From NCBI GenBank assembly GCA_030272155.1, contig CP126201.1, positions 310,001 to 374,000 of the forward strand: a stretch of 64,000 nt of DNA, read 5' to 3'. A model generated the notes under the pieces. It saw nothing but the letters and a program-made list of their open reading frames with translations. It ran no database searches and had not been told where the DNA came from. Origin of the DNA: Tetradesmus obliquus (lineage: Eukaryota > Chlorophyta > Chlorophyceae > Sphaeropleales > Scenedesmaceae). Positions 12 to 60,138 of the stretch are shown in pieces. The translations under genes and the position numbers were made by a program. Position 1 is the first letter of the stretch; the number at the start of each line of letters is the position of its first letter.

Positions 12-2039
12 TGTCCCGTGTGACATCTATGCGGGCATGCTGGCTGGCCAGCCCTACGCAGTTGCGCGCTACTTTGGCACTGCTGTGTTCTCCCTGGTCA
101 ACCTCATCTTCCTGGTCAGTTCCTGCAGCGTGCTGGACTCTACCTTTGCAAGCACTTCAAAGCTGTTCGGGCCGGAGCTGTTTGGTGCCATTCTGAGAGG
201 CAGGCCGCTGCCGCCACAGCTGGCTACTGTCAAGTGAGTGCCATTTGAACATTTTCGGTTTTGTAGCTTGTGGACCCTGGCGCCATGCGAGACAGTGTGA
301 CTGACAACGAGATCAACATAAAACATATGCTGCCTAGCCAGCTGGCCAGAGGCAAGTGAGTGCCTGCGCAGCTGTTGCACCTTCCTGGTCAGCTCCTGCA
401 GTGTGCTGGACTCTACCTTTGCATCAACATCAAAGCTGTTTGGGCCGGAGCTCTTTGGGGCCATCTTGAGGGGACGCCCGCTGCCACCACAGCTGGCCAC
501 TGTCAAGTGAGTGTGATATTTACATTGGAAGGGTGGTGCTTGCATGTGGGTCCTGGCATCAAGCACGTGATACAGGCTGCGTACCCAGCTGGCTACAGTC
601 AAGTAAGTGCCTGCGCAGCTGTGTGTTTATCTTCGTGGTCAGCTCCTGCAGCGTGCTGGACACTCTTTTCCAAGCACCTCAAAGCTGTTTGGGCCGGAGC
701 TGTTTGGGGCCATCCTGAGGGGTAGGGAGCTGCCGCCGCAGCTGGCTACTGTCAAGTGAGTAGGAAGTTGTGAGGAACGAGGTGCAGTGCTGCTAAGCTA
801 GCTAGGTCAGTGCAAGGATCATACACATCCCAGATTTGCTTCCCGGCAATGGACATCCTGGCATTCCATCACTTCCTGCTGCGGCCGCTGCATGCTTACA
901 CACACTGACCTCATGTGTTTGCCGCTGCTTGTCAAAATCTGCTGCTGCAGGCACGCGTGGGTGGGCCGCTTTGCGATTGTGTTCATGGCCATTGTGGGCA
1001 CGCTGCCGCTGCTGGCGGGTCCTTCCGCACTGGATGCCACCACCATCAGCGGCACCATGGTGGTGGGCCTGGGTGAGTGAAGCACAGGCTTTTGTTTCGG
1101 TCTTTGATTTGTTTTGTTGAGTTAGGTTAATGGACTTGCAACTCAGCAGCATGTGTTGCAGTCGGTGGGTGGTGTCGCCGGCATCAAGGTGGTGGGCCTG
1201 CTTGCAGGGCTGGGCTCAGCACTTGTTATGTGCTTTACTGCACAACAGCATGTTTTGCACAGGTGCGATGGGCCCTCAGCGCTGGACGCCACCAGCATCA
1301 GCGTCACCATGGTGGTGGGGCTGGGTGAGTGACATGTTAATGATCAGGAGTGCACGCAGCAGACTGCAAATTTAGTGCATTGGGTTGGCCTGCATAGATG
1401 CGATGCTGACGCGCAGCATGCTACGTCACTTGGCAAGCAATAGCTCATTCCTGCCGTGCCTCTTTTCCCGCCACTTCTCCCTCTCTTTCCCGCTGTCCGC
1501 AGGCCTCCCGTGTTTGCGCTGACGTTCCTCAAGGGCTACCGCCCCCTGGTCTTCCACCTGCCCTCAACTCATTATGCATACACCATTGAAGTATTGCTGG
1601 TGTTTTCGCTGTGCTGTTTCCCGTTGTCTCCCGCCTTGCAGGTCCTCCCGTGTTTGCGCTGACCTTCCTCAAGGGCTACCGCCCCCTTGTCTTCCACCTG
1701 CCTTTCTGGACCGGCGTGGCCTTCGGCGTGGTCATGCAGCTCTCCAGCAGCCCAGCCTTCAAATCCTCGATGAACGTTTCCGGCTTCGCGATCGGCTCCG
1801 GGCACTACGCGACACTCCTCGGCTTCAACGTCGTGAGTGCCGTCGTGTGCTGGGCACTCGCAGGATTGGCTTTGTTGGATAACAGGGCCGGCAGAACGCT
1901 CGAGAGGCTGCCTGGAGATGAGGCAGACTATGATGAGTTGGAGCTTGCAGCAGCAGGTGATAGTGGAGATGTGCTGCCTGTGAAGGACTTGGACGCCTTC
2001 AAGCCAGCTGCTGCTGCTGCGCCAGCAGGCCAGGCGTGA
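12..2039 (+). CDS. SSF-type sodium/solute symporter, 3' part (5' end outside window)
   Basis: Three exons join in phase: 12-233, 951-1072 and 1642-2039 (stop TGA 2037-2039), giving about 247 C-terminal residues. The first encodes a segment starting VPCDIYAGMLAGQPYAVA followed by a hydrophobic helix and the motif VLDSTFAST, which fits the conserved core helix of the sodium:solute symporter superfamily (urea/proline-type transporters). The second has ALDATTISGTMVVGLG at its end and the third begins PPVFALTFLKGYRP, then two more hydrophobic segments and a hydrophilic Ala-rich tail. Family assignment rests on recall of this motif set; the substrate cannot be told. The protein would sit in a membrane and couple solute uptake to an ion gradient. 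Introns after exons 1 and 2 and the 3' flank hold partial copies of the neighbouring exons. Confidence 0.6.
322..756 (+). repeat. Intronic copies of transporter exon 1 (3' part plus donor)
   Basis: Two long copies of the last ~125 nt of exon 1 with its donor lie at 382-509 and 628-756. Shorter copies of just the exon end plus donor lie near 333-358 and 589-610. The first long copy differs from the true exon in 14 of 41 codons, all synonymous, including AGC/TCA serine and AGG/CGC arginine switches, and ends in the same GTGAGTG donor. The second has a frameshift and a less conserved middle but keeps its donor. Confidence 0.9.
1271..1329 (+). repeat. Intronic copy of transporter exon 2 end
   Basis: This copies the last ~54 nt of exon 2 and its GTGAGTGA donor. 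Compared with the true exon I count five synonymous and two amino-acid-changing codon differences. A shorter echo of the same exon end lies around 1170-1200. Confidence 0.85.
1500..1564 (+). repeat. Intronic copy of transporter exon 3 start with acceptor
   Basis: A CAG acceptor followed by about 60 nt of exon 3 sits ~140 bp upstream of the real one. The three codon differences in the aligned part are synonymous, but one base is missing right at the junction, so using this acceptor would put the exon out of frame. Confidence 0.85.
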
Positions 2040-4730: not shown

Positions 4731-5131
4731 TCAGGCAGCACTTGGCTCCTTGCTAAGCGCTGGGGTGCTGGGGTCAGCCGCGTGAGCCTCCACAGCACTG
4801 CCGATCGCTTGGGCTGCCGGTATGTGGTGCACGCTGACATGGTGGGACAGGCTGAGCTGCGCCTGCACAGGAAAGGAAACATGTCTCAAAAGCGCAAGAG
4901 CTTGATGTTGCTGCCGCAGCAGAGGCAAACTGCAGTGCTCCGTCAACTCAAAGTTGCATTGTACGATGCACTGCATTGCAAGCAATTTGACAAGCATGCC
5001 ATCGCTGCCAGCCACAGCTAGGATCGACCCCATAAACTTGTATCTGCTTGTCACATACCTTGGGTGGCGCTCCCGGCTTGCCCTGCTGCTGCTCACTGCC
5101 ACCACTCAATGCCCTGTCCATGCTTGGCCGC

Positions 5132-5162
<31 letters not shown>

Positions 5163-8100
5163 GTCTGATGGGCTGCTGGCTGCTGCACTTGCGGCTGGTG
5201 CTAGACAGGTCGAAGCTGACCCTGCTGCTGCTGGTGCTGCGCCTGCCAGAGGTACCTGCAATTACAACAGCGCAGGCAGCAGTGCACACACCAAAGTGTT
5301 TGTATGTCGCGCGGCGCGGTTCTACTGCCTTGTTACAGCAAAGGGAGCCAGACTGAGGACTGGCAGCAGGTAACAAACCTGTACTTGGACGTGCAGTACA
5401 GCAGAGAGCAGTGCATAGCACAGTATGCCCTTGGGAGCTCAGCGCTACACGCGATGTGCATCACACCAAATGTTCTGTGCGTACCACAACTAGGCAAGCT
5501 GCAGCATGGAGGCAGGATACACTGTGCCACAAGATAATCAGCATGCTGCGCGTACCTGCTGTGCCTGCAGTGCGTCGTGCGTCCCGGGCAGGTTGCTGCG
5601 AGACCTCCTGCAGCCCCTGTCCACTGACATTCGGGCTGCCCTGTTCTGCCCTGGGCCTGCTCTTGCTGGGATGAGGGGTGTCGTGCCGCACAAAATCATC
5701 CACCAGCTCATTTGCTGCTGCTGCATCATGCTGGCGCCCACCAGCAATGACAAACCTAACCGACACTGCCGGTCCTGCTGCTCCTGCTGTTGCTGCTGCT
5801 GCTGCCAGGTCGTTGCCCTCTCGCAGAATAACCTGCTCATCTGAAATAGGCTGGCCATTGCTGTCAGCCCTGCCCCTAGTTGGATATGGCGTGCCCTTGC
5901 GCACAGGGCTGCTGATGTTGTCTTCACTCTCCGATTGTGCTACAGCAAAGTGCACATGCACCACTGTCAACTGCTGCAAGCTGGAGTGATGTGGCTCCTG
6001 CACTTCATCTTCAGACTGCCTGCCCCTGCCAGCAAACGGCGTGCCTTTGCGCTCAATACTGCTGTGCTCCCCACCACCGCCAGCGGGCACACAAAACTTC
6101 ACCTGCTGCTGGCAGCAGTGCTGCTGCTGCTGGCTGGCACTCTCAGGACCCTCTTTGCCAGGATACGGCGTGCCGTGCCGCTGGGATGCGCTGCAGCCAT
6201 TAGCTGCTGCTGTTCCTGCTACAAAGCAAACACTGGCATGGCCATGCTCCCTGCCAAAGCTGCTTGGCACATCTGTCTCTGCTGCAATTGCGACAGCAGG
6301 GTCATCATCCCTTGCAGGAAATGGTGTCCCATGCCTCTGCGATGCTGTGCTGCCATCTGCCGCTGCTGTTTCCTCGGCAAAGCTGACAGCAACACTGCCA
6401 TGCTCCTTGCCAGGGTGTGGTGTGCTGTGCCGCCGGCTTACGCTGTCTCCATCCGCTGCTGCTGTCCCTGCTGCAAATGTGACAGCAGGGTCATCCTCCC
6501 TTGCAGGAAAGGGTGTCCCGTGCCGCTGTGTTGCTGTGCTGCCATCTGCTGCCGCAGTTCCTTCTGCAAAGCTGACAGCAACACCACTGTGCTCCCTGCC
6601 GGGCTGTGGGGTGCTGTGCCGCTTGTTTGCACTGTCTCCATCTTCTGCTGCTGCTGTCCCTGTTGCAAACGTAACAGCTTGGCCGCTGCCTGAGTCATGC
6701 TCCCTTGCAGGATATGGCGTGCTGTGCCCTTGTGATGCACTGTCACCATCAGCAGCAGCCACCCCTTCCGCAAAGCTCACTGCCTGCTTCTCACCATGCT
6801 TGGAACCTTGACGGGAGAGGCTGCAGTAGACATCTCCATTGCTGGATCTGTTGCTTGCCCGGCATTGGCCACTGCTGCTGCTTCTGCTGCAGGCCGCACC
6901 ACTATACCCCTTTGATGGCTGCCTGCTGCTAGCAAGGGAGCTGCGCCTCACTGGGCTGTCTGCATTCTGCTGCACAAGCTCTGCTGCGGTTGCAGGGCCT
7001 TCCACTGCAGCAAACTCGTGGATGGGGTAAGGCGTGCCATGCTGCACTGGAGCATGGCTGCCCTCATCAGGGCTCTCAGCTGCTCCTGCAGACCTGACCT
7101 CCCTGCGGGCCTCAGAGCTGCGCCGCTGCTGCTGCTGCTGCTGCTGCTGCCGTTGCTGCTGCTCCTGCTGGTGATGGCTGCCTTGCGCAGCAGCTGCTGC
7201 TGGGGGGTGGTGCTGCACAAAGTGCTGCAGCACGCCAATGTCTGCTGTGCAGCGCCTGTCCCCAGGTGCTGCATGGCCATGGCCGCAGCCAGCATGCACG
7301 CCAGCAGCAGCCTCGTAGCTGCGCCTGCTGTTGCTGCTGCCACTGGTGGTTGTGTTGGACACAGCATGCACAACAGGCCGTCCCATAGCTCCAACTGCAC
7401 TGTTGCTGATGCGCCCAGCACCACTACTACTAGCACTTCCCTGCCATGGCAAGCTACCTGTTGTGCTGCGTCGCTTGGCCTTGCCCTCAAAACCTCCATC
7501 TCCTTCTGCCGCATGCCGCACAGGACTGCCCAGCTCCTGCAGCCTGAACACCACTGCAGCAGCGTGCAGGCTGCTTGCAGGAGAGCTGGGTGCTGGTGAG
7601 GCCCGCAGCTTCAGACTCCCAGAGCCCCTTGCACTGAGTGTTGGCGCGCCAGTGCAGCACTGCTGCAGCTGTGGCAGTGGCCCTGGTAGCTCTACTTCAT
7701 CGGTGAACAGCAGCCGCTGGCTGGGGCTCATGCCTGCTGTCTTGGGGCTGTGGCTGGGTTTGGGGCTGCTGTGGCCGGGCAGCTGCAGCGAACTGCGCGG
7801 GCTGCAGCCGCAGCTGCCTGCTGAGGTAGCACCAGGGTTGCCTGACGTGCTGCGCGTGTGGCGGGATGAGGATGACAGGCAGGGCTTCAGCGCGGCTGGG
7901 CTGCTGCTGCTGTCCCTGTTGCACCAGGCGCCGCTGCCGCTGCTGTTGATGAGCACTGCCAGGTCAGTGCTGCAGCGTCCACTGGTGGCGCGGCTGCCAA
8001 AAGCTGGGCTGGCTGCACTGCTGGTGGTGCTGCGTGCACCTGGCCCATTGTAGCTGCTGCTAGCCGGGCCTTGCATGAAGGGCGACTTGATGCAGCCTGT

Positions 8101-15625: not shown

Positions 15626-18600
15626 CTACTTCCTGTTCCAGTGCTCGTAGTCAACGAAGAAGAAGCGCTGCCTCAGCTGTCCCAACTGCCGGTGCGCAAA
15701 CAGCAGCGCGCAAGCCAGCAGCGCCAGCAGCACACACTGCCAGCCGGGCAGCGCCGCCAGCGCGCCTGCTGCTGCCTGCATAGCGCCAGGGCCACTGCCT
15801 GCTGCTGTTGCTGCTGCTGCTGTGGTTCCAGCAGGTGTGCTGCCAGCAGCCACTGCTGCAGCAGTGATGGCTGCTGTGCAAGCTGCTGCTGCGATGCCTG
15901 ACAAGCCCAAGCACACCGCCTGCAAAGCAGCCAGGAAGAGTATGCAGTGCCGAATAGAGCAGTCAGGACACAGACCGGTTGCCAGCCAGTGGTCAGGTTG
16001 AGGCCGTGCAGCAAGTTTTCAGGTGTAGAGTTGCATGACTGCCAGCTCCCGAGTACAGGGTTCGCTGTTCAGGTGAACTCGCCAATGTTGCAGGAAGCAG
16101 CAGCATTATTGTTATGGCTGAACTGATGATTTGATGACAATGAAGTCATTCAGGAGCAACTGCTGAGGTGGGCGCTTCATGACGAGCGCCTCACCTGCAG
16201 CCGCTAGATCCCACCATGCTGCAAGTCGCTGCAAAGCAAGCCCTGCAGCTGTGCAAGCCTCACCTGCAGCCGCTGCTTCCATTACCTGCCGCACTGCAGC
16301 TCTTGCAGTGCTGCGTGTGCTTGCCACACCCGATCCACTCTAGCGCTGCATGTCGCTGCAAAGCAGGCACCTCAACCGTCACCTGCAGCCGCTGGATCCA
16401 CTCTAGCGCTGCATGTCGCTGCAAAGCAGGCACCTCAACCGTCACCTGCAGCCGCTGGATCCACTCTAGCGCTGCATGTCGCTGCAAAGCAGGCACCTCA
16501 ACCGTCACCTGCAGCCGCTGGATCCACTCTAGCGCTGCATGTCGCTGCAAGGCATGCACCTCAACCGTCACCTGCAGCCGCTGGATCCACTTGACTGCTG
16601 CGCTGCAGCTCTTGCAGTGCTGCGTGTGCTGGCTGAAACGGTCCATCACCACAGCGCGAGGCAGCACAGGGCCAAGACCTTGGCTGGCCAGGGCGCCCGG
16701 CCAGGGCACGGAGCCGCCGGCGCAGTCGTGGTACCAGCTGCGGAACTTGATGATGCCTGCATGGGGAGAGGGAAGCATACAGGCAGCAAGTGAGAGGGGA
16801 GTAAGCATGTGTGGATGGTAAGTGCCGGCTGAGTGGCTGCATAGCAGGCAGCGGCACAAAATGTTTACCATCTGCAGATGCGTGAAATGTATGACCAGCA
16901 GTAGGGAGGAGCTGCCAGGTGCAGAGAGCAGCGCTGAGAGGCGTCAGGCGCAGCTGCTGTAGATGCAGAGCAACAACCACAGTGCCGCATGCGGGTTCGT
17001 GTTGCAGGCGTTGCTCATGATATGATGCAGGGAGAAGTGCAGCAAACAAGATCCCTCGCACCCACCTAGGTCTGCGCCGGCGGGCATATAGAAGGCGCTG
17101 CGCCAGTTGGTGTCGCGCCCCTCATGCAGCAGCCGCTCCTGCAACAGCGCAGCACCCCGAACACAGCAGTGCACCCCATCAAGATAGTGAAGGCACACAC
17201 CACCGTCACGTGAAGCACATGCGCACGCCCTTCATATGTACTGCTTGTTTCACAGCAGCAACCGGCACAGGATGGATGCACTGCAGGTGACACTGATCCT
17301 GCCCTCTGCTCAGTTGCATACACCTGCCTACAGGCCACTTACCTGCACGTGCAGCAGCATGCCATCACTATCCAGCACCTGGTTTTGGCCCTGCAGGCAG
17401 CAACGACAGGCAACAGCCAGGGTCACAGATACCAAATTGCGCACAGTCCAGGCGAGCAGCAGCAAGCCAGCGAGAGTTGGGTGACACTGCAAACCAGGTT
17501 CCAAACTCTTCACTGCCACAGCTGGCAGCACAGAAACCCTATGGCGGCAGCAGCAGCAGCACCTCTTCGGCTGCATGCTGCAGCCACCACCGAGCCTCAC
17601 CAAGTGGAACACCCACTCCACTGCTGCTGCCAGCTTGGCGGCAAAAGCCGGCACCTTGGCATTCGTGAAGAAGGCTGTTATCACGCGGCTCTTGCCGGGT
17701 GCTGTTGGGATGCCGTAGAAAGTCAACACCAGCGTGGTGCCTTTGACCGTGTTGGTCTGGCTGCTGGCGTTGAGCGTTGGAGGCACAAAGTTGTTGACAG
17801 TGTCGGTTGGCGCTGCTGTCTTGAAGGGAGCACTGTCCCTGAACAGCTGAAAGCCGCCTGCAAAACAGCACCAAGCAGAACATAGATTGCGATATGGTAC
17901 ATCGGTACAACTTGTGTGATCCACAGAACGCTTGCAGGACAGCTGCACATGCACCATCAGTAGCAACATGGTGTGCCATGTGCCACGCCATCAGCTGAAT
18001 GACTGTCAATCCAACCTGGAACACACTTGCAGGAAATTTGGACATCAGCACCAACTGCAAAGGCAGTCGGAACAAATGATGCGTTGCCAGCAAAACACTA
18101 CGCGTGCATGGAGTTGATGGTAGGTGATGCAGCATCTGCTGAAGTAGCCGCATCTAAGCTGTGATTCAACCAAACAGCAGCACAGCACAGCGCTCACCTT
18201 GCGCAGTCACGTCCACCTTGCGTGACGGCCAGCGGCTGCGCTTTGTCCCTGCAGGCACTCAGCACAGAGAGCCTGCACATCTGCAACGTCCTCCAACCTG
18301 TTAAATGCTCACCTTGTGCAGTCACGTCCACCTTGGTGGTGATGGCCAGGGGCTGCGCCTTGTCCCTGCTGGCGCTGCCCATGATGCCGTGGTGAGCAAA
18401 GGGGATGTGGCTGGGGTCAAAGCTGCGGCACATCCAACAGCAGCATTAACATGACATGAGCAGCTGCGCTTCCAGCGGCATTTCAGCGGCATGCTCAACA
18501 CAGAGCCATGCAGAAGGGCTTTGATGCCGTGGTGCGCAAAAAGGGATGCGTCTGGGGTCAAAGCTGTGCAGACGGCAGGAACAGCAGAATGACAGCAGCA

Positions 18601-19390
18601 CAACCACAGCACAAGCAGCTGTGCTGGCGACACAGCCTCAGCAGGTGCCACTGCCCATGTGCGCTTCAAAGCTCACAATCAACTGATTAGCCACCATGAA
18701 GATGTTAACAATATCACAACTCACAGATTCTCCATCATCGTGTCATAGCCGTATTCCAGGTCCCGTGCAAACCACTCGCCTCCCAGCAACGTCCAGCCCC
18801 CAGCGCCCCACTGGCTGCTGAGGGCGGGCGGTGAGGCAGCTGCCAAATCGGATGAGGCTGCATCAGGCCACACCCACAGCAGGCCCTGCGCAACCTGCAG
18901 TGGCACAAAACACGCGCACGCAGATGCAGGTTGTGAGGCGCACAACTTCTCTGTAAGCGAAACAGCCACTGTTAGGCGGCTGCCAAATCAGATGAGGCCG
19001 CATCCGGCCACACCCACAGCAGGCCCTGCGCAACCTGCGTGGGCAAGAGGCGCCACAAGATAGCAGGCAATCTGACTGTGAGGCTTGCACAAAACACGTG
19101 CGGCCCAACCAGCTGCTATGAGGCTGCTGCCAGGGCAGGCGAGGCCCGCTTCCGGCTACACCCACATCCGTCAAGCTGAACTGCAAGCGTACACGGATCC
19201 TGTAAGCTTACACGGATCCTGCAAGCTTGCGCTGTTCCTGTAAGATCACAGCCTCAAGGCCATCTGCTGGCATCTGCTGAATGACATTAACTGCCGTCAG
19301 TGACAGACAAGCTGCCAACTGCCGCTGCTTCTCACGCTGTCGGCCTATGTGTAAGAGATTTGTGGCGGCGCAGGTGTGCTTGATGCTGCA

Positions 19391-22146: not shown

Positions 22147-25100
22147 TTGGTGTTTGTTTGCTTTGAGTTCAAGCAAGAGGCACCTGCGCCTACCGCCAGC
22201 AAACCTAGAGTGATCAGGCGTAAACGCAGCCATGCACACAGCTACCAGTATAGTGCGACAGGTAACATATCATCTTACAAACATTGCATCGCTGATCGAG
22301 CACAAGCTCCTACCCCCAACGTATCTGGCACTCACGCCTTACTGGCTCTCACTCGCACGCAGGTTGTGGCGCAGCAGTCGCTTGCAGGAGCCCCAGCTGT
22401 GCTACGTCTTTCAGGAGTCCTCGCGTGCAGCAGACTGAGCCACCTCAGGTGGGCCTGAGCATGCCTAGAGCATGGCCTGATGCACTGCTGCTGCTGCCTT
22501 GTCTGCTGCTCAAGCAACATTGCAGCATGTTGCCCTGATCAGGCACATTCAAACTCCCGTTATACATTAGCAGGATGATGTTTTGACGGCGACCTGAACT
22601 GTCCTTGTGCTGCCTGCTGCTTGCTGTGCAGCTGGCCCACATGCAGCGCACAGCTGTCGACCTCAGCTAAAGAGCAGCAGGTGAGGCACATGCAGCGCGC
22701 CCCAGCTGCGCCCAGCCTGCTACGTTTCATTGCGCTTAAAGTAGCATGCAGCCGGCAGGTGTTTCTCAAGACTAATTTTCAGCTGTCGGGCAGCACCTGT
22801 CCTGCTCAGTCCTGAGGAGCAGTGCGGGCTGTGCATTGCCTGAAGTGCTGCAGTATGCTTGCCTACCTAGCAGCTGTAGCACGCCATTTAACCGCTCTGG
22901 GTTGTGGTCTGGCTGCTGTGCCGGGTGTGCAGCAGAGGCCAGCGAACGCAGCAACGGCAGAAGAAGCGTTAGTATGCAGCCAAGGCAGCAGAAGCAGAAG
23001 CAGCTGGTCTTGAGTAGCGGCACGACATGCTGCTGCATGCTGCAGTTGTAAGCAGTGGTAAGCAGCGCCCATGCATGCTCTGCACTTTGCATTCCTGCAG
23101 CAGTTCGATATTGAACTGCTTTCTAATTTAACTGCCCCTGGTGTTTCTTTGTGGTGCGCAGGAGACCCAAAGCAGCGAGCAGCAGCAGCAGCAAGCAAGC
23201 AGCAGCTCCTCACAAGCAGCAGCCGAAGAAGCAAGCAGCAGCGGCACCAGCAGCAGCGGCGCCGAGAGCAGCAGCAGCAGCAGCAGTGGCACCGAGAGCA
23301 GCAGCAGCGGCGCTGGTTTTGGCGGCTTCAAGCAGCAGTTTGACTCCTTCAAGTCGCGGCTAGGCGGCAGCAGCAGCAGCGGCGAGCAGCAGGAGCAGCT
23401 GCCGCTGGGGCAGCGTGCACACCAACTGTGGGACACTGTGCGACGGGAGGTTGCTGATGCTGTGCTGCCGCGGAATGAGCGCTACAGCCTGACGCGTGCG
23501 TATGAGGGGCCCACATACCAGGTGCGCAGTGCAGCTGTGTGCGCTTTGGGATTGTGTGCTGCTTGTGCGCGGCCGGTCGTGCGCGTGGCTCGTGTGCCGG
23601 TCCATAAGCAGGTGCCCGCTGTTGGGAAGCGTGATTGCATCAGTCGTGGCAGACGCAGAGAGATGTGCGCTTCAGGACAGCAATGGCGCTGTTCATGAGC
23701 GCAAGGTGTTGCCAGGCCCCGCCTGCAGCATCCGGCCCGGTCAAAGCCAGATCTACTGCATGCTGGCAACGTTTTTTTCGTAATGGTACATGTACAGCAC
23801 CACATAGTGATCAGATGCATGCGTGTCCTTCACTTCACGACATATGTATATCTTGTCTGCCTTCACCCAGGCGCCTGACACGCCGTTTGACGGCCCCGCA
23901 GCGTTGGAACTATTGCATGATAGATACTGCCGATTGCATCTGCCCCCCAAATGACTTGGATCCAGCACTGTCTCAGGTCTGCTGCAACGTACCTCCTTGG
24001 TGTTACCGCAGGCGCCTGACACGCCGTATGACGGCCCCACAGCGCTGGCAGCAGTCAAGGTGCCCGAGTCAAAGATGAACAAGGTGCTGTCCGACCTCTA
24101 CGAGAAGTTTGGGCACCACCCGCTGTTTGCAAAGCTGCGGCGCGTGGACATCAAGGACACCCCGATCTTCAAGAAGGGAGCTGAGCTGGCTGACGACATC
24201 AGGGACAAGTATGAGACCAGCGACCACCCAGCAGTGCACAAAGTCGAGGTGAGGCCGGCGTCCGCTGCCTGGCCTGCACATGTGTCAGTGCCAGCAAGGT
24301 TTGCGTGTTGTTGGGCTGCTCCCTGCTGCTGCTGCTGCTGCTGCTGCTGCCGCTTCCGCACCTGCTGCTGTCTCTGTAGTGAGCTATACCTGATGCGCAA
24401 GCCGTGGCCTGTATTGTACTGACACCCTGCATCGCTGTGTCTGCCGCCGCGCCTGCCTGCTGCTGGCCTCCATACATGCCACACAACCCTGTACAACAGG
24501 ACGTGAAGGCTAAGCTGTTTGGCATGAGTGAGACAGCCACTGCCATGGCCATCATCCGCAGCAGGGACCCGCGCTTCGACATGACCACGCTGCTGGACGG
24601 CGTGCGGTGAGCAGGCACAGCAGCAGCAGCAGCAGCGGCTGCAGCAGCCTGTAAACTCAGTAACAGCAGCTGTAGCAATAGCAGTTGTGGTGGCAGCAGC
24701 AGCAGCAGTTCACGCAGACAGCAGCAGCAGCAGCATCAGCAGCACGAATTGACAGCAGCAACTGCAGTCGCAGCAGTAAGGCAAGAAGAGAAGTTGCCTG
24801 CAGCAGTAACATTCTGCAAGCAACAACCTGCAGCTTGTGGCCGTTACTTCTGCAGCTGATGCGTCAGCAACTTGCGCTGCCAACATTGCACACTATTGCA
24901 GTCTCCAACGCTGTCGTTGATGCGTCGATCACACATCCTGCTTGTTCACACTGCTGTTGGCCGTTGCAGCTTTGACTCCCCTCGCGTGGTGAAGGCCTTC
25001 CTCACGCACGACCTGCCCACGCTGCGCAAGCACTGCGGCCCGGAGCTCATGGAGCGCCTGGAGGGCATCTTCAAGCACTTTGAGGCGCAGGTGCGTCACA

Positions 25101-26275: not shown

Positions 26276-26320
<45 letters not shown>

Positions 26321-35407: not shown

Positions 35408-37080
35408 AGGTGCCTGACCTGGACTGCACGCTGGGCAAGGGCGTGCGGCGGCTGGACAGATACGACCAGCTGTCAGCTTATTTGCTGGTGAGGCTGAGCT
35501 GCTGCTGCTGCTCAATCATGCAGCCTTTTATGTTACAGTGTATTGTCCCTGCAGCTTAGTACGGGTAGAATGCATGTTGAGGCAACGTGGGCCATGCAGG
35601 CACATGCAGCTGACCAAACCTCATACGCCGCCGCTGCGCTGTGTGACAGCACGATGCAGTGTGAACGCAGCACAGCACACGTAGAGCGCTTGTTGAAAAC
35701 AATGAGGACCTTGCGGTCATTCGCACGGTTTTGTGTCTGTGCAGCACTCGGCAGCAGCCGTGCACCTGGTGTTGGTCGGAGCCGCGCAGCAGGGCAGCAG
35801 CAGCAACAGCAGCAGCAAATGGTGCTGGGAGCTGCTATATCCTGTGACAGCACTGTTGCCCAGCTGCGCTCTGTGTGTAAAATCGAACACAGCGTACACC
35901 AAGCCATCTCTACAGTCCCACACACAAACAACGTGTGTCTGTAATCACCTGCTGCTGTCCCGCACCACCTGCAGGGTGCGCGCCGGGGCAAGCTGGTGCT
36001 GCTGCCCTTCCAGCTGGCAGTGCTGATCGGTGAGGGAGCGGCAGCAGCAGCAGCAGTATTTTGGCAAGCAATTCAGCAAGAAAGGGAGCAAGGGCTCGTC
36101 CTCTCTTACCAATGTTGTGTTCATGTGCATGCAGCTGAACAGGATGCATGTCAGGTGCAGAGGCACTGCTGGTCAACTTGATAGCTTCTGGGCAACCAGG
36201 TGCATGCGTGGTGTGTCTATGTGTCTGTGTAGGTGGGCTGTCAGCAGTTGCTCAGAGCAACGGCGACAACTAACGACTGCTTCACTGCTGTCACTGCTGC
36301 GGTTCGTGTTGCTGTCCTGCAGGCATTGGCATCACGTACACAGTGGTGAGCAGCAGCAGCAGCAGCAGCAGTAGTAGCAGCAGCAACAGCGGCAGCAGCA
36401 GCGTTTGGCACTGCATGACATGCATCTCAACAGTGGCAGCGACAGATGCGTGTTTTGTAGTTAAGACTCAATTGCGGTCAATCAAGCGGAACAGCTGCAG
36501 GTTGTCCTGACCTGGATGCTGCAAACATGCAGTGTCCGCAGCAGCCACCGCACAGCAGTAGCAGGCAGATCCCTTCCTGCATGTGATTGCTCATGCTGTG
36601 CTGTGCTGCTTCTTCATGTGTGCAGGTGGCTGGCGGCTGCCTGCAGGCGTTTGCGGGCTCTGTGGGCACCAGCGGCAACAAGGTGCTGGGCACCTGGGCC
36701 TACATGATCATGTTTGGGGCGCTGCAGGTGGCACTGGCCATGGTAAGTGGGGATTCGCTTCATAAGAGATGTACGTCAAGCTGGTAAGTATGTTGTGTTT
36801 GTTGCTGGGCACCTGGGCCTACATGATCATGTTCGGGGCGCTGCAGGTGGCACTGGCCATGGTGGGTTGCAGTTTTATATGTGAAACACAGCTCAAGGCG
36901 TCGGATGTTAGGCTGGTTGCAGTGTTGGGCACCTTTGGCAGCAGCTTGATCACATTTGGCAGCAAGACTTGCATGGGACAAGGGACAGCCAGCGATGTTT
37001 GCTGCTGTTCTGTTGTTGTCTTTGACACCTACTTGAACACTTGCAACTTTCGGACAGTCTCCTTACGCTGCTGCTGCCGC

Positions 37081-37129
<49 letters not shown>

Positions 37130-38274
37130 AGCTGCTATTGACTGCTGCAGTAGTCCTCATTTGATGACATCCGCTGGGTCTCCCCGAGGGAATAAGTGAT
37201 GTCCATGCCCTACTGACTCTCCCCTGCTGCTGCCGCCGCCGCTGCTGCTGCTGCTGCTGCCGCCACAGCTGCCCTCATTTGATGACATCCGCTGGGTGTC
37301 CCTCATGGGATCATTGATGTCTATGGCCTACTGTATCATCGCCTTCGCCATGAGCGCAAGCGTGAAACCGGATTCGACCGTCAACTATGTGCCGGCAGCG
37401 GTGCCGCGCAGCACCATTGACCGCGTGATGGGCATCTTCAACGCGCTCACCTCCATCCTGTTTGCATATGGTGAGTCAGCGCTGCATTTCTTATCTGCGG
37501 TGGTTTTATTTGGATGCCCAGTGAGGGTGGAAGTAACACTGGATGTGAAATTTGCAGTCAGCACTGCGTGTTGGTGTGCCTTGCCATGAGCGCCAGTCTC
37601 AAGCCAGAGTCAACAGTCAACTATGTGCCGGCAGCAGAGCCGCGCAGCACCATTGACCGCGTGATGGGCATCTTCAATGCGCTCACCTCCATCCTGTTTG
37701 CTTACGGTTATTCGGCGCTGCATTCTTTACCTGTGGTGTTTTTTTGGATGGGGATGGAAGTAACACTGGTTGTGAGAATTGCAGTCAGCGCTGCGTGTTG
37801 GTGTGCTTTGCCATGAGCGCCAGTGTGAAGCCAGATGCAACTGTGAACTATTCGTCGGCAGCGGTGCCGCGCAGCACGATCAACCGCGTGATGGGCATCT
37901 TCGATGCGCTCACCTCCATCATGTTTGCTTACGGTGAGTGAGACGCTGCTGGCTCAGGCGCAGCACGGAGGTTGTGCTGGCAGTTGCTTTGATGTGCCGC
38001 TGCGCATCTCACCTTCGCAAGTGCCTGCCGTTTTTTTCTGCTGCGGCCTGCTGCGGCCTGCTGGTACAGGTTTTATAGAAGTGACGCGCTGCTGAAAGCT
38101 GCTGCTGCTGCTGTTGCTGTTGCTGCTGCAGGCGGGCACAACGTTGCGCTTGAGATCCAGGCCACCATCCCAGTGGGTGGGCGCCACCCGCTGACCACCA
38201 TCCCTGCAATGATGAAAGGCGTGAACGTGACCTTCCTGGTGAGTGTTGGGCTGTGGCTTTCATGCTCTGCAGCC

Positions 38275-38312
<38 letters not shown>

Positions 38313-40154
38313 CAGCCACGATAGATCTCAAGGTGATTGGTGAGCAGACACTGGCTGTGTCAGGTTGCACAGCTTTCTGCAAACGCCTCTCGGGTGCAGC
38401 ACGCTGCTATCTGCTGTCATCTTGGCCTACACGGCATGCTCCCCCTTGCTCCACTAGTTTCATCCTCTGCTGCCGGCGCCCCTGCTCCTGCTGCTGCTCA
38501 CCCCTGCAGGTGACTGGCCTCTGCTATTTTGGTGTCACAATTGCTGGCTTTCATGCCTTTGGCACTGCCGTGCCTGACAATGTGCTGGGCGCATTTGCGC
38601 ATGGCTCCCACTTCTGGGTGGTTTCTGCAGCCAACCTGATGGTGGTGCTGCACGTGGCAGCAGCGTACCAGGGTGAGCAGCAGCAGCAGCAGCACCAGCA
38701 CACCCACTCAGCGGAATACCAACACTCCGAGCATCAATCGTGCTTGGCACTCAGTCGCCTGTGCGTGAAGCATCTGCTGGGTGATGCGCTTGTGATGCAT
38801 TTGCGGCTGCAGCACCTCCAGCTTGCGGCACGCGCTCACGCAGGAGCTGGGTCACACTGCAGTGTGCTGCATAAGGAATTGCAGGGAAGACAATACATTC
38901 TGCAATAGCCACATGCAACAAATTGGCTCACTTATCAAGAAGGGCCCCTCAAAAAGGCACCCTGCTGCAGCCATGATACATCAATTACTCACACCCCTTG
39001 CGCGCACCCTGCCCCCGCAGTGGTGACCATGCCTGTGTACAACCTTATTGAGACGCGGCTCAAGCAAGCACGTGGCGGCGTTGATCTGACCATGCCCATG
39101 ACATTCGGCGTGCGGCTGCTGTACGTGATCCTGGTGACGCTGGTGGCGATCGTCATCCCCTTCTTTGGTGAGCAGCAGCAGCAGCAGCACTGTTGTGCAG
39201 ACCGCAATGTTGAGACGCTGGCAGGCCTCTGTTCAGTCAATGATTCGAGACTTGCGCCAGCCCTTGTTGTGCAACAGACCTTGCTTCGCTGTGCACGAGC
39301 AATTCAATATGCCTGTTCTCATGTGGCTTCTTCACCTTGTGTATCGTCCAGATGGACAGTCTAGCATGAAAAATGCGAAGCTGCGCACCTATCGTGCTGC
39401 AGCAACTGAATTGTTCCCTGCACTTGCTTGTGTCTTGCTGCAGGCGCGTTGATGGGCCTGATTGGCGCCATCGCGGTGACGCCCACCACCTTCCTCCTGC
39501 CCCCGCTGTTCTGGATCATGTTCAAGCGCCCGCGCAAGTGGGGCCTGGAGTGGAGCGTGAACGCTTTCCTGGTGGTGGTCACGGCACTGCTGGGGCTCAT
39601 GGGCATGGTACGTAACAGATATGGAGGGATTGGACACTAGTCTATATTTGTATCAACACAGCCTGGAATGGAGCGTCAATGTTGTCTCGGTGGTGGCCCA
39701 TGTGGTGTCTAAATGCCTAGGCGCTGTGCTTGCTGTTGTGTATTCGAACTGTTTGCAAGTGGGGCCTGGAGTGGAGCATGAACACTTGCCTGGTGGTAGT
39801 CACGGCGCTCCTTGGACTCATGGGCATGTGCGTTACACTTTGTTGCTTGCCACGTGCCTTGGCTATGTGTTTGTGTGGGGGCAGTTGAGCAAGTGGGGCC
39901 TGGAGTGGAGCGTCGGTGCTTTCCTGGTGGTGGTCACGGCACTGCTGGGGCTCATGAGCATGGTGCGTCACACTTGACAGAACATAAGGCGAACTTCAGT
40001 CCCAGCCCTTGTGACACAATGTATAATGCACGTCGGCACAGCTGCCCTGTAACTGTACAGGTGGGGCCTTTGCTCAGCATCTAGTGCCTGTCATGTATGG
40101 GTATGTAGATCTGCTTGTGCTGCTTCTGACCACCGCCGTCGCTGCTGTTGCTGC

Positions 40155-40217
<63 letters not shown>

Positions 40218-51718: not shown

Positions 51719-52890
51719 ATGGACGACCCTGCAACATGCACCCGGATGAGGTCACTGAAATCGGCTGCTTACAGTGGTCGTCTGGACGCTTTGCAGCAGC
51801 TGCTAGACACAGGCGCATCAGTAACAGCAGCAGACGAGCAAGGCCGCACACTACTGCACATGGCAGCTATAACTGGCCATGCCCCGTTGCACAGCTGCTT
51901 ATTGAAAGGGGAGCATCATTGTCAGCACAAACGACTTCAGGGGACACACCAACACACTCTGCAGCCATGCATGGCCATGCTGCTGTGCTGGCGCTGCTGC
52001 TGGGCCAAGGGGCGGCAGTGGCAGCTGCTGATGCAACAGGCTGGACAGCACTGCACCATGCAGCCGCATCTGGACATGCCGATGTGGTGCAGCTGCTGCT
52101 GAATTATGGCGCCTCAGTGGCAGCTGCAGATGCAGCAGGCTTCACACCACTTCACTGGGCAGTCAAATGTGGCCATGCTGCTGTGGTGCAGCAGCTGCTG
52201 GAGCACGGCCCACCACTGGCAGCAGCAAGCCCCGACACCTTCACACCACTTCTCTTGGCAATCAAATTTGGCCATGTTGATGTGGTGCAGCAGCTGCTTC
52301 AGCATGGCGCACCACTGGCAGCCGCAGACGCAGTAGGCTTCACACCACTTCACTGGGCAGTCAAATGTGGCGATGCTGCTGTCGTGCACCAGCTGCTGGA
52401 ACTTGGCGCACCACCGTCAGCAGCAGGCCCACAAGACTCCACACCACTTCACTGGGCCGCCATGGGCGGCCATGCTGCTGTCATGCAGCAGCTGCTAGAC
52501 AGGGGCGCGGATGTGGCAGCAACGACTGCATACGGCTCAACACCTCTGCAGTTTGCCATGTTCGACAGCCAGTTTGACGCTGCTGCGAGGCTGCTCACTG
52601 CCATGGAGCCCACACACGCCGACGTGGCCAGGGAGGTGCTGTCAGAATTCCCACAAGATGCTCAGGCTGGTGTGCACATGGCGTTTGCGCGACTAGTGTC
52701 AGCCACGCGGGCGCAGGTGCAGCGGATGCAGGAGCAGCTGGACAACGACAGGCAGCAGCGTGCAGCGGACCGTGCAGCAGCGCAAGAGCTGCTTGTCGCT
52801 GCATGCCTGAAGTTTAAAAGTGCGCAGGCCGCTGAGGTTGATGATGCTGAAGAGTTCTTTTCTGCTGAGTCGTCTGACGATTATGCATAG
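51719..52890 (+). CDS. Ankyrin-repeat protein with C-terminal coiled coil, one frameshift near 51888
   Basis: From ATG 51719 the frame gives MRSLKSAAYSGRLDALQQLL, a perfect first ankyrin repeat, and a second begins GRTLLHMAAITGHAP. There, within a CCCC run at about 51885-51888, the frame shifts by one base; the following VAQLLIERGASLSAQ continues in the other frame to the stop at 52888-52890. Seven further ankyrin repeats follow (TPLHWAVKCGHAAVVQQLLEHG type), then a helix-rich C-terminus with a coiled coil (QVQRMQEQLDNDRQQRAADR) and an acidic end. Total near 390 residues without introns. The shift in a homopolymer looks like a read error; otherwise translation would start at 51736 and lose the first repeats. 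Ankyrin repeats bind protein partners; the target is unknown. Confidence 0.75.
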
Positions 52891-54656: not shown

Positions 54657-57600
54657 GCAAGTGCCCCTTCCTTGCTGCACTGCCAGCGCCTCCCCCTGCC
54701 CAGAACGCATGGTGGCAGCGGCTGCAGCAGTTGTTCAGCCCAGCTGACTACCAGAAGGAAGCGCTCGGCCCTCACTCGATGGTAGCTGCACCAGCACAGG
54801 TGCGCAGTGCGTTGCAGGGTGCCGTCATTTGTGTTTGCCAGTTGGTCTGCATTTGAGGTGCAACGCGGGGCGCTGCGTACGGCTGGTGCAACACGGGGCG
54901 CTGCGTACGGCTGGTGGGTGTGCGGCTGTGGCATGGCACAACAGCATGGCATGCTTTGCGTTGTGGCCCACTGCGGGAGCTACCCACTGCGCCATGCTTT
55001 ATGCAACCCCTACCCCTACTAGAACCCAAAGCACACATGTCAACATGGTGACCTACTCATCGCTTTCTGCTGTTGCCTCTGCTGCGTGCTGCTGCGCCCT
55101 GCAGATGATGATGCCCCCTCAGTACGTCCTGGGCACTGCAGACATGGTCAAGACAGCTTTTGCAGGAGAGGCCGAGGGCCTGACCACAGTGGCGCCTTCC
55201 GGTCTGATGAGCAGCCGTGAGTGCCTGCAACATGTGCTGGCTTTCTGCTGTTGTGCATGCATGAAGAGCTTGTGTGCTGGACAGGGTTTGCATGGGGGGG
55301 TCGGGGGCCTGACCACAGTGGCGCCATTCAATTTGATGAGCAGCCGTGAGCGCTTGAAACATGTGCTGGCTTGCTGGATTTCTGGCTGACATGAATCTTG
55401 AAGCGCTGTAGAGCGGTGGCGGCGATGCAGTGACACGGCATTGTATGTATCACAACAGCTGGCGTTCTTTTTCATCTGCTGCTGCTCCTCACGTCCAATG
55501 CGCTGCATCCTGCAGGCTTGCTGCTGGGCCACCTGTCGCTGCTGATGCTGCCTGAGCCGCAGCACACTGCTCAGAGTAATAACTTCGAGTTTGGCTGCTG
55601 CTGCTGCTCTGCTCTGCTCTTCTTCCTGCAGGCTCGCTGCTGGGTGATCAGTCGCTGCTGATGCTGCCTGAGCCGCGACACACTGCTCAGAGTAAAAACC
55701 TTGAGTTCGGCTGCTGCTGCTGCTCTGCTCGTCTCTTCTCCCGCAGGCTCCCTGCTGGGCGACCAGTCGCTGCTGATGCTGCCTGAGCCGCAGCACAAGT
55801 ACCTGCGCAACCTCATCATGCCTGCTTTCACAAATGAGGCCATTGAGCGCCTGGTGCCACGCATGGAGGCAGTCCTGCAGCGTTATTTGGATGCTTGGGC
55901 GGATGCAGGGGCGCCTGTGAAGGCGCACAACGAGCTGCGCCACATGACGTTTGAGTTCATCGTGGCGGTGAGTGCAGTGACGGTGGCGGTATTGGTGGTG
56001 CTGCTGCTGAACCTGTTAGCAGGCATCACTCATGTCAATTTGTGTCTCATAATCACCAGCTCATACTCAGCTGTCAACTGCTGCCTCACCGATCACATGC
56101 GTGCACATGCAGCTGGTGCTGGGGCGCGACTACCCTGAGGCCACCATCTGCCGCCTCAGCAGGCTGTAGCAGGTTGTCATATCATCTTACTCTATTGTAA
56201 TGCTTCTGTCATTGTTGCGCACACCACACCTGCAGGTGGTGCTGGGTCGGGATTATCCTGAGGCCACCATCAGCCGCCTCAGCGGACTGTAGCAGGTTGT
56301 CATATCATCTCGCTCTATCGTAAAGCTTCTTTCATTGTTGCGCACACCACACATGAAGGTGGTGCTGGGCCGCGACTACCCCGAGGCCGCCATCTCCCGC
56401 CTGAGCGGGCTGTCAGCATGCCGTCAAATCACCTCATCTCAAACCTAAAGCTTCTGTCATCATTGTTTGCGCATGCAGGTGGTGCTGGGGCGCGACTACC
56501 CCGAGGCCACCATCTCCCGCCTCAGCGGGCTGTACACCACCTTGCCTCATGTCTGATTTGCAGCCACACTTTCCATTACCTGAGTATCAGCCTGTCAACA
56601 CACTGACAATGCATGCAGGTGGTGCTGGGCCGCGACTACCCGGAGGCCACCATCTCCCGCCTCAGCGGGCTGTACACCACATGGGCTGGCGGGCTGCTGG
56701 CCTGGCCCTTCATCGACCTGCCATGGACGCCCTTTGGCAAAGCAGTGGCCGCCAAGCAGCAGCTGCTGGACTTTTTCCAGGTCAGGGCCTCACTGTAAGG
56801 CTGCAGGCGGGTGGTGGTGGGGTGTGCGTGGTTGCTGGTGGTGTGTCCGTAGAGTGTGCAGAAGCTGCCACTGAGGTTGAAGGCACGTGCTGCAGATGCT
56901 GCCGCGCCGTGCAGCTGCCTGTGCTCATCATACATCACCTTCATAAAAGTCCTGCTGGTGTCAGCTTGGAGCTCACCTGACGCGGTGCTGCTGTTCTGTC
57001 GCATCGATGGCACGATATCCCGTGCAGGCTGCTGTTGATGAGGCGCGGCTGCAGCTGGCTGCTGGGCATGCGGTGCCTGGCATCCTGGGAAGCCTGGTGT
57101 CTGCAGTGGATGAGCAGGGCAACAGGTGGGTGCAGCGGCTGGTGATTGTTGAACATTCATCAACAGCTGGGTTGGCTGTCTGCTGTTTGTTTGTTTGTTG
57201 GGTCGTGCAGTCTGTGCAAGTGCCATGGTGGAACCTAGCAAACAAGCTGCTGCTGACCATGCTGAGCACACTGCTGACAAGATTTCTGCTGCTGCCGCCG
57301 CCCCCTGCCCTGTTATCTATGCCCTTGGAACAGGCTGACTGACGCGCAGCTGGGTGACAACCTGCTGCTGATCATGCTGGCGGGCCACGACACCAGCAGC
57401 ACCACACTCACCAACGTCATGGCAGACCTGCAGGTGAGGGCGGCGGCTGACGGTTGGGCGGTGATGTGTTGATGATAATGGCTAGGTTGATGCTGGTGAT
57501 GACGTTGATGGTGGTGATGGAGCATTGATGATAGGCTCACCAACGTCATGGCAGACCTGCAGGTGGGGCGGCGGCTGCAGACTGACTGTGATGACGGTGT

Positions 57601-58380
57601 TGGGAACGGTGTTGGTGATGTTGATGATGGCCAACCTTTGGTGCGGTGGCGGTGACGGTGAGGTGTTGGTGATGTGATGATAGCCAACGTGTCCTTCTTT
57701 GTTGGGTGTGCCAACAGGAAGAGCTCGCCATGCTGCGCTTCTCGCTGGGTGCAGCTTGCTCCATGGTGTGTCTTGCAGGCGACAAGCAGCAGCCGCCTTT
57801 ACCTCTAACCGCGCTGTTGCTTGTGCTGCTTGGCTGCTGCAGAGCAACCCTCGTGTGGTGGGGCGGCTACGGCAGGCATGACAGCACTGCACTTCTGCTG
57901 TATGTGTAGCTGCATCGACATTTTTGTGTAATGTGTGTCTGCTGCAGAGCAACCCTCGTGTGGTGGAGCGGCTGCGGCAGGAGCAGCAGGCCGTGGTGGC
58001 CAAGCACGGCAGCCGCATCACTGGGGCCATCCTCAAGGAGATGACCTACGCTGACGCAGTCATCAGGTGGGCAGCCAAGAATGTTATATGTTACTTTTTT
58101 GATGTTATATGTTACTTTTGGATCAGAGCACATGGCAGCCGCATCACCGGGGCCATCGGCAAGGAGTTGACCTGCGCTGACGCAGTCATCAGGCATGCAA
58201 CAGAAGTGTGACAGTGAGCTGCCCGCAGGTATATCTGCGCTGTGGTTGGTGTTTTGTGATCGTTGCTTGGCTGTTAAGCAGGCGGCCTGCAGGCATGCTG
58301 CAGGTGTGTGGCGTCACCGATCTTGGACAGCGCCTGCTGCTGTTTGTAGCACACAGCTGCTCCTGTTCAATTGGTGATTC

Positions 58381-58451
<71 letters not shown>

Positions 58452-60138
58452 AGGGAGACGCTGCGGCTGCACAACGTGGTGTCTGGCCTGATGCGGCAGG
58501 CTGCCAAGGACTTTGAGCTGGGCGGCTACAGGTGAGGGCAGATGACAGGCGGGGGAGGGTTGCACTTGCACAGCAGAACCTTTTGCAATCTGGCTGATGG
58601 CTGCGGTTGGGCAGTGGCGTGGTGCGGCAGGCCGCAAAGGACTTTGAGCTGGGCGGCTACAGGTAAGAGGTGTTACATTGGCTGTTGCAATGGCTGATGG
58701 CTGGAGTTGGGCAGCGGCGTGATGCGGCAGGCCGCCAAGTCCAACCCTTTTGAGTTAGAATGGCTACAGGTGAGGGGTGGTTGAGTATTGATTGGGTGGC
58801 ACTGGCATTTCAGGAATCACTGTGGCAGCACAACATTCGCAATGGCTGTCGGCTGGGGTTGGGCAGTCGCATGAAGCTGAGGGTAGTGAAGCATACTGGG
58901 ATGGGTGGCTACAGGTGTGGTGGTGCAGGGAGTTTCATGCAAGGGTATCTGTTTAGCTTGCAGGAAAACAGGGGTAAAGGGCTGTCAAAAACATGTTGCC
59001 TTCTGCAACTGGTACAACAACTGACTCTCTTCTGCCTGCTGCTGCTGCTGCTGCTGCTGCAGTGTGCCCAAGGGGACAGTGCTGTACCTGCCCGTGACGC
59101 ATGTGGGCCTGCAGGACCCCCGCTTCCTGGAGCAGCACCCTGAGGCCTACGCCCCTGAGCGCTTCATGACGCCAGAAGGCCAGAAACCCGGCGCGCAGAT
59201 GCCCTTTGGCCACGGCCCCAGGTGGGTGTTGGGGTTTGGGGTGTTGGGGTTTGGGGTGTGGGGTTTTGGTGTGATTATTGAGCTGGCTGTTGAGGGGGGT
59301 ACGAGAGTGCTTCATGAGGCTAGAAGGACAGAAGCCGGGTGCGCAGATGCCCTTTGTGCACCGCCCCAGGTGCGGCTTCAGAGTTAGGGGTGCTGATTGC
59401 GCTGGCTGTACAGCACAGCGGGGTTGGGAAAACAGTGCTCCTGCTGCTGTCAGTGCCCTGCCACGATGCCTCTATTGCCTTCTGCTGCGTCTGCACATTG
59501 GGACGCTGTCTGCTGAAGAGTACAAAGGGATGTTATGCACTGCGGCACCTCGTGCATGTTTTGTGCCGGCTGTGCTGTGACCATAGCTGAGTAAAAGAGG
59601 TTTGGCAACAGGGTTGTACAGTAACCGTGGACTTCTACTGACACGCTGCGCTCTTCACTCGTATGCAGGTTTTGTGCCGGCTATGCTGTGGCAATGGCTG
59701 AGATGAAGGTGTTCATGGCGCTGCTGGCCCGCGGCTATGACTTTGACGCCGACACTGCACCTGGCCCAACTGACATGCTGCACTCTACCGCCTTTTCTGC
59801 CGCTTGCAGGTGCTGTGCTGGCTATGCTGTGGCAATGGCAGGGCACAGGTAAAATGCAACTGGGGTTGTGCAGTGCGTGGACTCTCCACTGAAATACTGC
59901 CCTGTTATATACACTGTTGTGCATGTGCAGGTTTTGTGCCGGCTATGCTGTGGCAATGGCAGAGATGAAGGTGTTCCTGGCGCTGCTGGCCCGCGGCTAT
60001 GACTTTGACGCCGACACCAACACGCAGTGGCGCCAGGAGATTGGGCGCGTGCCAGCCAACGGCCTGCCCATGACAGTCAGCAGGCGGCCTGCTGCTGTTG
60101 TGGCAGGGGCTGCGCCAGCTGCTGCGGCGAGGCGGTGA
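54577..60138 (+). CDS. Cytochrome P450 monooxygenase, CYP85-clan-like, 5' end unresolved
   Basis: Ten exons join in phase: 54577-54799, 55105-55216, 55747-55967, 56619-56780, 57028-57125, 57334-57433, 57948-58066, 58454-58531, 59063-59221 and 59931-60138; at least one earlier exon (membrane anchor) is missing from my model. Clear P450 landmarks: MLPEPQHKYLRNLIMPAF (C-helix region), the I-helix oxygen-binding motif AGHDTSSTT in exon 57334, ETLR of the K-helix at 58454, PERF in exon 59063, and the haem loop PFGHGPR/FCAG, whose cysteine is split from its upstream half by the last intron. The overall pattern resembles CYP120/CYP26-type (CYP85 clan) enzymes; substrate unknown. P450s of this clan oxidise terpenoids, sterols or carotenoid derivatives. 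Its introns carry some seventeen exon-junction copies, the densest set here. Confidence 0.85.
55283..55350 (+). repeat. Donor-side copy of P450 exon 55105-55216
   Basis: The end of the exon (GLTTVAPxxLMSS) with GTGAGC donor and following intron sequence recurs about 130 bp downstream. Confidence 0.9.
55512..55746 (+). repeat. Two acceptor-side copies of P450 exon 55747-55967
   Basis: Units of about 117 bp each carry a CAG acceptor, the first ~47 nt of the exon and a shared intron piece (ACTGCTCAGAGTAA, then CTG-rich). The nearer copy has three synonymous and one changing codon difference; the farther one is more altered. Confidence 0.93.
56106..56543 (+). repeat. Four acceptor-side copies of P450 exon 56619-56780
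   Basis: Copies begin at about 56112, 56236, 56359 and 56479, each with GTGGTGCTGGG and the following VLGRDYPEATISRLSGL coding stretch. In the second, seven of 18 codons differ from the true exon, all synonymous, including an AGC/TCC serine switch. The first two run into TAG immediately after GL. Confidence 0.95.
57536..58200 (+). repeat. Copies around P450 exons 57334 and 57948
   Basis: 57536-57566 repeats the end of exon 57334-57433 (LTNVMADLQ plus donor). 57835-57872 repeats the start of exon 57948 with acceptor (SNPRVV). 58128-58195 repeats the end of that exon (GSRITGAI.KE.T.ADAVI) with a weakened donor. Confidence 0.9.
58381..58453 (+). repeat. (CTG)24 tract forming the acceptor of P450 exon 58454
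   Basis: An uninterrupted run of about 24 CTG units ends in CTGCAG directly before the exon that begins with the K-helix ETLR. Confidence 0.97.
58600..58922 (+). repeat. Three donor-side copies of P450 exon 58454-58531
   Basis: Copies end with GGCTACAG plus donor at about 58663, 58770 and 58916. The first reads RQAAKDFELGGYR almost perfectly, the second has an inserted stretch, the third is strongly diverged but keeps GGCTACAGGTG. Confidence 0.9.
59306..59852 (+). repeat. Copies around the P450 haem-loop intron
   Basis: 59306-59371 repeats the end of exon 59063 (GAQMPF.H.PR) on the donor side. On the acceptor side the start of exon 59931 (FCAGYAVAMAEMKVF) recurs at about 59558-59590, 59668-59750 and 59812-59848; the middle one carries about 85 nt with near-identical translation through GYDFDADT. 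Confidence 0.93.

Follow-up and report, generated by a model that had tools for sequence, protein, structure and literature searches.

Exon-edge copies in the introns of five genes

The window analysed here is a 64-kb stretch of the genome of the green alga Tetradesmus obliquus (C11:310001-374000, in a genome of 104.66 Mb in 17 contigs). It carries genes for a transporter, which from its translation we take to be a sodium:solute symporter-like protein, for Tim44, an amino-acid permease and a P450, and for an oxygenase, the last name being a label of the preliminary description of this DNA, given without a database search. The introns of these genes contain partial copies of the neighbouring exons, which are listed in Table 1. 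Differing codons are counted as synonymous (S) or changing (N), and ratios are written S:N, for copy against exon unless stated otherwise.

The 27 exons of the five genes were fixed from reading frames, and copies of each were sought within 2.5 kb on either side under one uniform setting. The search returned 54 rows, of which 12 were matches to a CTG microsatellite (58381-58460) and were removed, leaving 42 local copies in 19 of the 27 curated exons. All 16 copies of exon heads lie upstream of their exon and all 21 copies of exon tails lie downstream, the other five being internal; this is the geometry left by tandem duplication across one splice site. Among the copies read by eye, many retain the splice site or its dinucleotide, and after the matched part the frame hits a stop or is lost. 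Taken together, the 42 copies contain four stops and seven frame-breaking gaps. Two copies, both of the transporter, cover more than 90% of their curated segment, because the open frame is longer than this segment, which forms its 3' part; the exon at 97-233 matches three sites in the genome, all local, namely itself and its two copies.

The phenomenon extends beyond the window. A 304-kb sample of the genome was composed of the window, its upstream 10 kb and 23 other 10-kb pieces, with piece L006, made up entirely of the letter N, excluded. Local repeats cover 15.5% of the sampled bases, with densities from 0 to 49% per piece, and the two members are at most 1.5 kb apart in 380 of the 432 direct-repeat pairs, while a Markov control of 240 kb yielded no direct-repeat pair. 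At least 25 columns of intron flank could be aligned in 28 of 78 exon-copy pairs and in 53 of 74 copy-copy pairs, hence not in all. Heads upstream, tails downstream, close units and a common flank are what tandem duplication leaves behind. The exon-edge copies in introns are real, and tandem duplication across splice sites accounts for their geometry. With about 15% of the sampled bases in local tandem duplications, many of them across exon edges, this genome offers a natural record of intron growth and exon copying.

Table 1. Exons and exon copies in the window, with differing codons (S:N) of each copy against its exon; "copy-only" denotes changes placed on the copy.
Feature	Position	Strand	S:N and remarks
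Transporter, true exon, 3' part	97-233	+	open frame; donor GT at 234
Transporter, intronic tail copy C2 with donor	378-506	+	14:1 (14:0 from 382); copy-only 7:1
Transporter, intronic tail copy C3	629-755	+	8:4 and a frameshift; copy-only 1:4, decaying
Tail copy of exon 952-1071	1270-1323	+	6:2
Head copy of exon 1644-2036	1504-1562	+	2:0
Oxygenase, head copy of exon 18724-18894	18971-19034	-	4:1; the N is a stop in the last matched codon
Tim44, two tail copies of exon 24971-25091	25154-25338	+	copy-only 0:2 and 1:3 including a stop; near neutral
Tim44, head copy C1	25534-25620	+	8:0; 6:0 against C2
Tim44, head copy C2	25700-25789	+	8:0
Tim44, true last exon	25877-26170	+	genome searched for PF04280: no other match at E<=0.001
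Tim44, three copies of the end of the last exon, past the stop codon	26333-26758 (starts 26333, 26495, 26718)	+	0:4, 1:1, 1:5
Permease, tail copy of exon 36626-36742	36803-36863	+	1:0
Permease, true exon	37272-37472	+	exon-only changes 6:0
Permease, two tail copies of exon 37272	37583-37708, 37806-37935	+	10:3, 11:6; copy-only 1:3, 3:4
Permease, two tail copies of exon 39446-39607	39755-39972	+	copy-only 5:2 (39755), 0:2
P450, tail copy of exon 55105-55215	55280-55344	+	3:6, one frame-breaking gap
P450, two head copies of exon 55746-55967	55515-55682	+	0:3 and 3:1
P450, four head copies of exon 56619-56780	56114-56547	+	7:0 (56236 copy); others 2:2, 2:1, 3:2
P450, copies of later exons	57536-60212 (starts 57536, 57843, 58131, 58615, 58716, 59305, 59559, 59670, 59814, 60175)	+	

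Copies of the end of the last coding exon past the stop codon, as in Tim44, are also seen in a P450 gene on contig C7 (piece L030, 150-334).

The P450 protein P0001 of T. obliquus matches the joined exons of the window at 100% identity over 418 amino acids, with the intronic copies left out of the protein. In a relative, a metagenome open reading frame (P0023) appears to continue past an exon into the final part of an intronic copy (MLPEPQH), the junction being that of window 55631-55682, and judged from this read-through the copy appears to be old or recurrent. In the permease gene, positions 36847-36861 within an intronic copy encode VALAM, the five extra residues of the permease annotated in another T. 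obliquus assembly (P0029, OEZ85_005540); this stretch may be spliced in as a microexon, or the gene prediction may be at fault. For Tim44, a protein search with the read-through of the copy found four proteins, every one of the exon type, and beyond their boundary the Tim44 copies have no significant homology to the exon.

Comparison with known systems

Tandem exon duplications and mutually exclusive exons, as treated in PMC9013439 and PMC6071210, are alike in being local tandem duplications within genes, sometimes with adjoining intron; unlike mutually exclusive exons, the copies described here are truncated exon edges, many of them neutral-looking, and are known from sequence alone. None of the heads, tails and internal pieces among the 42 copies amounts to a whole exon with both splice sites, and at the protein level six families are extreme in their silent share, the others being near the value of a neutral copy. 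Repetitive intron content in green algae also includes introner elements; the copies differ from these in not being dispersed, as their close spacing shows, and none of the seven window stretches that were searched has a match outside its own gene, apart from one paralogous permease. Intron gain by tandem duplication likewise copies a segment that bears a splice signal, but here existing introns grow. Retro-copied exons carry along neither intron nor splice site, whereas the copies read by eye carry a splice site and many pairs have a common intron flank. In Chlamydomonas and Volvox, tandem repeat motifs are enriched at intron ends, according to PMC3887541; repeats at green-algal intron ends are shared with the present case, which differs in that spaced units of about 100-400 bp contain coding sequence. 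Among the papers listed by searches of open-access literature, which does not cover subscription journals, there was none on such copies in T. obliquus, and the passages of PMC7590803 that were read do not contain the words intron and tandem.

Silent and changing differences

The copies had been described as differing from the true exons almost only at synonymous sites, with a total of 69:11 over nine of them. They do stand at the positions given, the listed codon counts are reproduced within 1-2 codons, and a recount of the same nine gives 70:13. The nine are, however, only a part of the 42 copies; those remaining, 33 in number, give 65:92 (51:60 for the 26 of them with E<1e-6), and the full set gives 135:105. 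The description thus holds beyond chance for a subset and fails for the class as a whole. Copies 55512 and 39757 had already been called more neutral-looking, and the permease copies at 37583 and 37806 differ from each other by 5:9, near neutral, though both were among the nine.

It had also been argued that neutral debris should show the reverse proportion. This is the wrong null, as the exon branch changes almost only silently; because half of the divergence time falls on this silent-only branch, a neutral copy should show about 45% S, or 45.5% with CpG included. The observation is partly confirmed: a selected subset had been judged against the wrong null, and a modest real silent excess remains.

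For the counts across the sample, reading frames were picked from codons identical in both copies only. Six of the 43 families found were excluded from these counts and from the model fits: two that belong to a pentatricopeptide-repeat gene in piece L028, two (39891 and 56467) whose reference rows repeat a family already present, and two minus-strand window families, 1079 (wrong-strand reading, 4:3) and 13064 (1:3). The 80 copies in 37 families give 261:201, with a family bootstrap of 49-64% S. Once the transporter family is included and pairs of fewer than 12 codons are set aside, there are 78 exon-copy pairs in 38 families, with a total of 276:198, or 58% S (94:47 in the 23 window pairs and 182:151 in the 55 pairs elsewhere). 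When families holding a copy with S>=6 and N<=1 are removed, the 56 pairs left give 162:156, and their 51% S (bootstrap 42-59%) is indistinct from the neutral-copy value.

A null of a silent-only exon, a neutral copy and CpG excess gave p<0.01 in 8 and p<0.05 in 12 of 55 pairs drawn from the window and 24 other sampled pieces, a set that is non-independent (the two Tim44 pairs and several P450 pairs overlap) and takes in three pairs of the L028 gene as well as one pair of the window whose strand was misread. In 210 local pairs not classed as coding, the per-site frequency of CpG transitions is about 6.8 times that of other transitions. CpG mutability was rejected as the cause of the excess, since allowing for it lifts the silent count expected under the null from 184 to no more than 195, while 258 were observed.

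Where a family has two or more copies, changes can be placed on one branch. The copies of the permease 37272 family look near neutral, and so, on small counts, do those of Tim44 exon 24971-25091, of the P450 55746 family (copy-only 0:1 and 1:1) and transporter C3. Silent-rich by the same measure are transporter C2 (7:1), P450 copy C2 (3:0) and the copy at 39755 in the permease (5:2). Tim44 C1 and C2 are so too, with 2:0 each and, in addition, three silent states at two codons. A two-step AGC/TCC switch in a P450 copy was discarded as a silent-only path, as a neighbouring copy has TGC (Cys) and a changing step is possible. Outside the window, piece L012 (4375-5392) holds nine partial copies of the tail of a coiled-coil exon, three of which differ from the exon by 9:0, 8:1 and 6:1 and others by up to 3:6.

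Origin of the silent excess

In the account that we propose, segments of about 100-400 bp are duplicated in tandem across much of the genome. A duplication across one splice site would be tolerated because one exon-edge copy, the splice site and part of the intron included, ends up inside the intron. The copy would then decay neutrally while the exon changes only silently, and this alone would give a synonymous share of about 45% among differing codons. What exceeds this share would most likely stem from copy and exon having come from different alleles of a diverse population, either at birth, by unequal exchange between homologues, or through later recombination; such allelic differences would be silent because they accumulated while both were exons. 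The alleles as source and the exchange mechanism are the parts that we infer. Tandem duplication, neutral decay and allelic differences together are, by a narrow measure, the probable source of the silent excess.

The S and N counts were fitted with four models, in which related pairs were treated as independent. Over the 78 pairs the log likelihood was -340.7 for neutral copies only (2 parameters), -323.9 for one omega on the copy (3 parameters; omega 0.59), -320.8 for a constrained fraction (4 parameters) and -319.1 for a neutral copy with an allelic term (3 parameters). With one pair per family (38 pairs) the corresponding values were -153.9, -140.2, -140.4 and -138.1; as the constrained-fraction model nests the omega model, its lower value means that the optimiser stopped short, and the shape of the age distribution reached its upper bound in several fits. 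In these fits neutral copies alone are rejected, and an allelic term fits somewhat better than constraint on the copies. The term is about 0.07 at the average site and 0.08-0.09 at silent sites, with a free shape of 1.1, near the exponential of a plain coalescent. The 74 copy-copy pairs give 199:254, or 44% S (48% averaged by family), which by our own algebra would be near the value of the allele model if the copies came from different alleles.

Diverged haplotypes are plausible in this algal group, by analogy with related genomes. The assembly of strain DOE0152z reaches 208 Mb, whereas that of UTEX 393 has about 109 Mb (PMC5552973, a paper that itself makes no mention of haplotypes), and the genome of Scenedesmus sp. 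NREL 46B-D3 is called likely diploid, with alleles separated, in PMC7955037. The latter case, a related alga with separately assembled alleles, would also suit an origin of the copies as assembly chimeras of haplotypes. That origin can hardly be true, as the copies are short and of regular head/tail geometry, local repeats occupy so large a share of the sampled bases, and P0023, from a relative, appears to continue into a copy at the same junction. Should the silent excess be allelic, the copies would be fossil alleles, and past diversity could be read from one genome.

Several results weigh against alleles as the source. The advantage of the allelic term over constraint is modest, at 1.7-4.8 log units. 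Under the allele model 1.9 pairs should reach S>=7 with N<=1, and 8 are observed, in six families (P=0.0005 on the assumption of independent pairs, which does not hold); the one-omega model expects even fewer, 1.2. The six families are those of Tim44, the transporter copy at 378, one P450 copy and three outside the window. Since Tim44 C1 and C2 differ by silent changes alone, two separate allele sources would be needed there. In the 28 flank-alignable pairs, divergence is 0.191 at silent sites, 0.032 at changing sites and 0.197 in the flank; the value of 0.032, set against about 0.09 expected for neutrality with no allele term, would put the allelic depth at about 0.13, above the fit. Three proteins of the other T. 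obliquus assembly show about 5-6 differences in about 1,250 residues (about 0.5%, with exon-edge misreads omitted). At an assumed ratio of nonsynonymous to synonymous divergence (dN/dS) of 0.05-0.1 this would imply a dS of about 0.02-0.04, two to four times below the fitted depth, so that the two agree in order of magnitude only. The full identity of the P450 P0001 likewise indicates low divergence. Finally, copy-unique changes are 65:70 over 66 copies, 48% S where 29.5% is expected if neutral, which speaks against all copies being plain debris; this share is inflated where copies were taken at different times from a changing exon, and is a guide, not proof. On the model, the six most silent families need deeper alleles than it gives, or another cause.

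One such cause would be present purifying selection on a minority of the truncated copies at the protein level, for example through splicing into isoforms. The high copy-unique silent share, the excess of extreme families and the placed changes of transporter C2 agree with it, as do the Tim44 units, which are silent-only both against the exon and against each other while the intron parts between them are homologous but diverged. The five residues of the annotated permease that match the inside of an intronic copy point the same way. The copies are, however, exon edges and not whole exons, those read by eye run into a stop or lose the frame after the match, several of these genes also hold sister copies of neutral appearance, and the constrained-fraction model fits slightly worse than the allele model despite one more parameter. 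We regard such selection as unlikely. Its specific form, in which Tim44 25534 and 25700, transporter 378 and the copies in L011, L012 and L017 would be kept by protein-level selection outside the normal mRNA, for example by low-level isoform splicing, is a shade more doubtful. If some copies do prove to be under constraint, selection on coding content would extend to fragments regarded as inert.

The silent-rich copies could also have come from outside the normal allele pool, through hybridisation or introgression with a sister species or from a paralogue since lost or lying in stretches closed to searching, such as the all-N piece L006. The extreme families show about 0.2-0.4 silent differences per codon, which exceeds the fitted 8-9% and would suit such a source. 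Six window copies searched together in the searchable genome hit nothing beyond their own genes except a permease at 4.0 Mb on the same contig; it is 76% identical and has a second partial match 146 bp further on. The Tim44 search gave a single family match. Moreover, a single hybrid source fails to explain the three silent states at two Tim44 codons. An outside source deserves weighing, but is improbable.

The paralogous permease (C11:4000761-4000954) matches the same exon twice, at 76% and 81%, suggesting an intronic copy of its own. In relatives' DNA, neither one P450 exon sought in viral contigs nor one Tim44 exon sought in genome contigs had a match.

The preliminary description had concluded that the copies diverged while translated, offering function in some transcript, patching from diverged alleles or paralogues, or rotation of the used copy over time. 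Rotation among the tandem units would accord with the splice dinucleotides kept in many copies read by eye and with the multi-unit arrays; by argument, at least one of two units would always be neutral, so N should reach the null of one neutral branch, and the silent-rich set rejects this null. We consider rotation very improbable. For paralogues there is no donor in the searchable genome, where a check for a locus that beats the host exon (six copies, one exon and one Pfam family, with the best candidates scored) found none. Alleles gain modest statistical support from the model fit, at a depth that exceeds the protein-based estimate. Function in some transcript may hold for about six families. 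That earlier interpretation is partly supported. A conversion load, in which selection removes changing mutations from a copy that converts the exon, was also considered and rejected, since by arithmetic a silent divergence of 30% is unattainable at a diversity of a few percent.

Other repeats in the window

Longer tandem arrays with short unit spacing, without a tie to a curated exon, occur at 51792-52520, 6151-6783 and 16191-16633. Long CTG/CAG runs are found at 58384-58452, 37078-37130, 40150-40216 and 26276-26320, some of them directly before the start of an exon.

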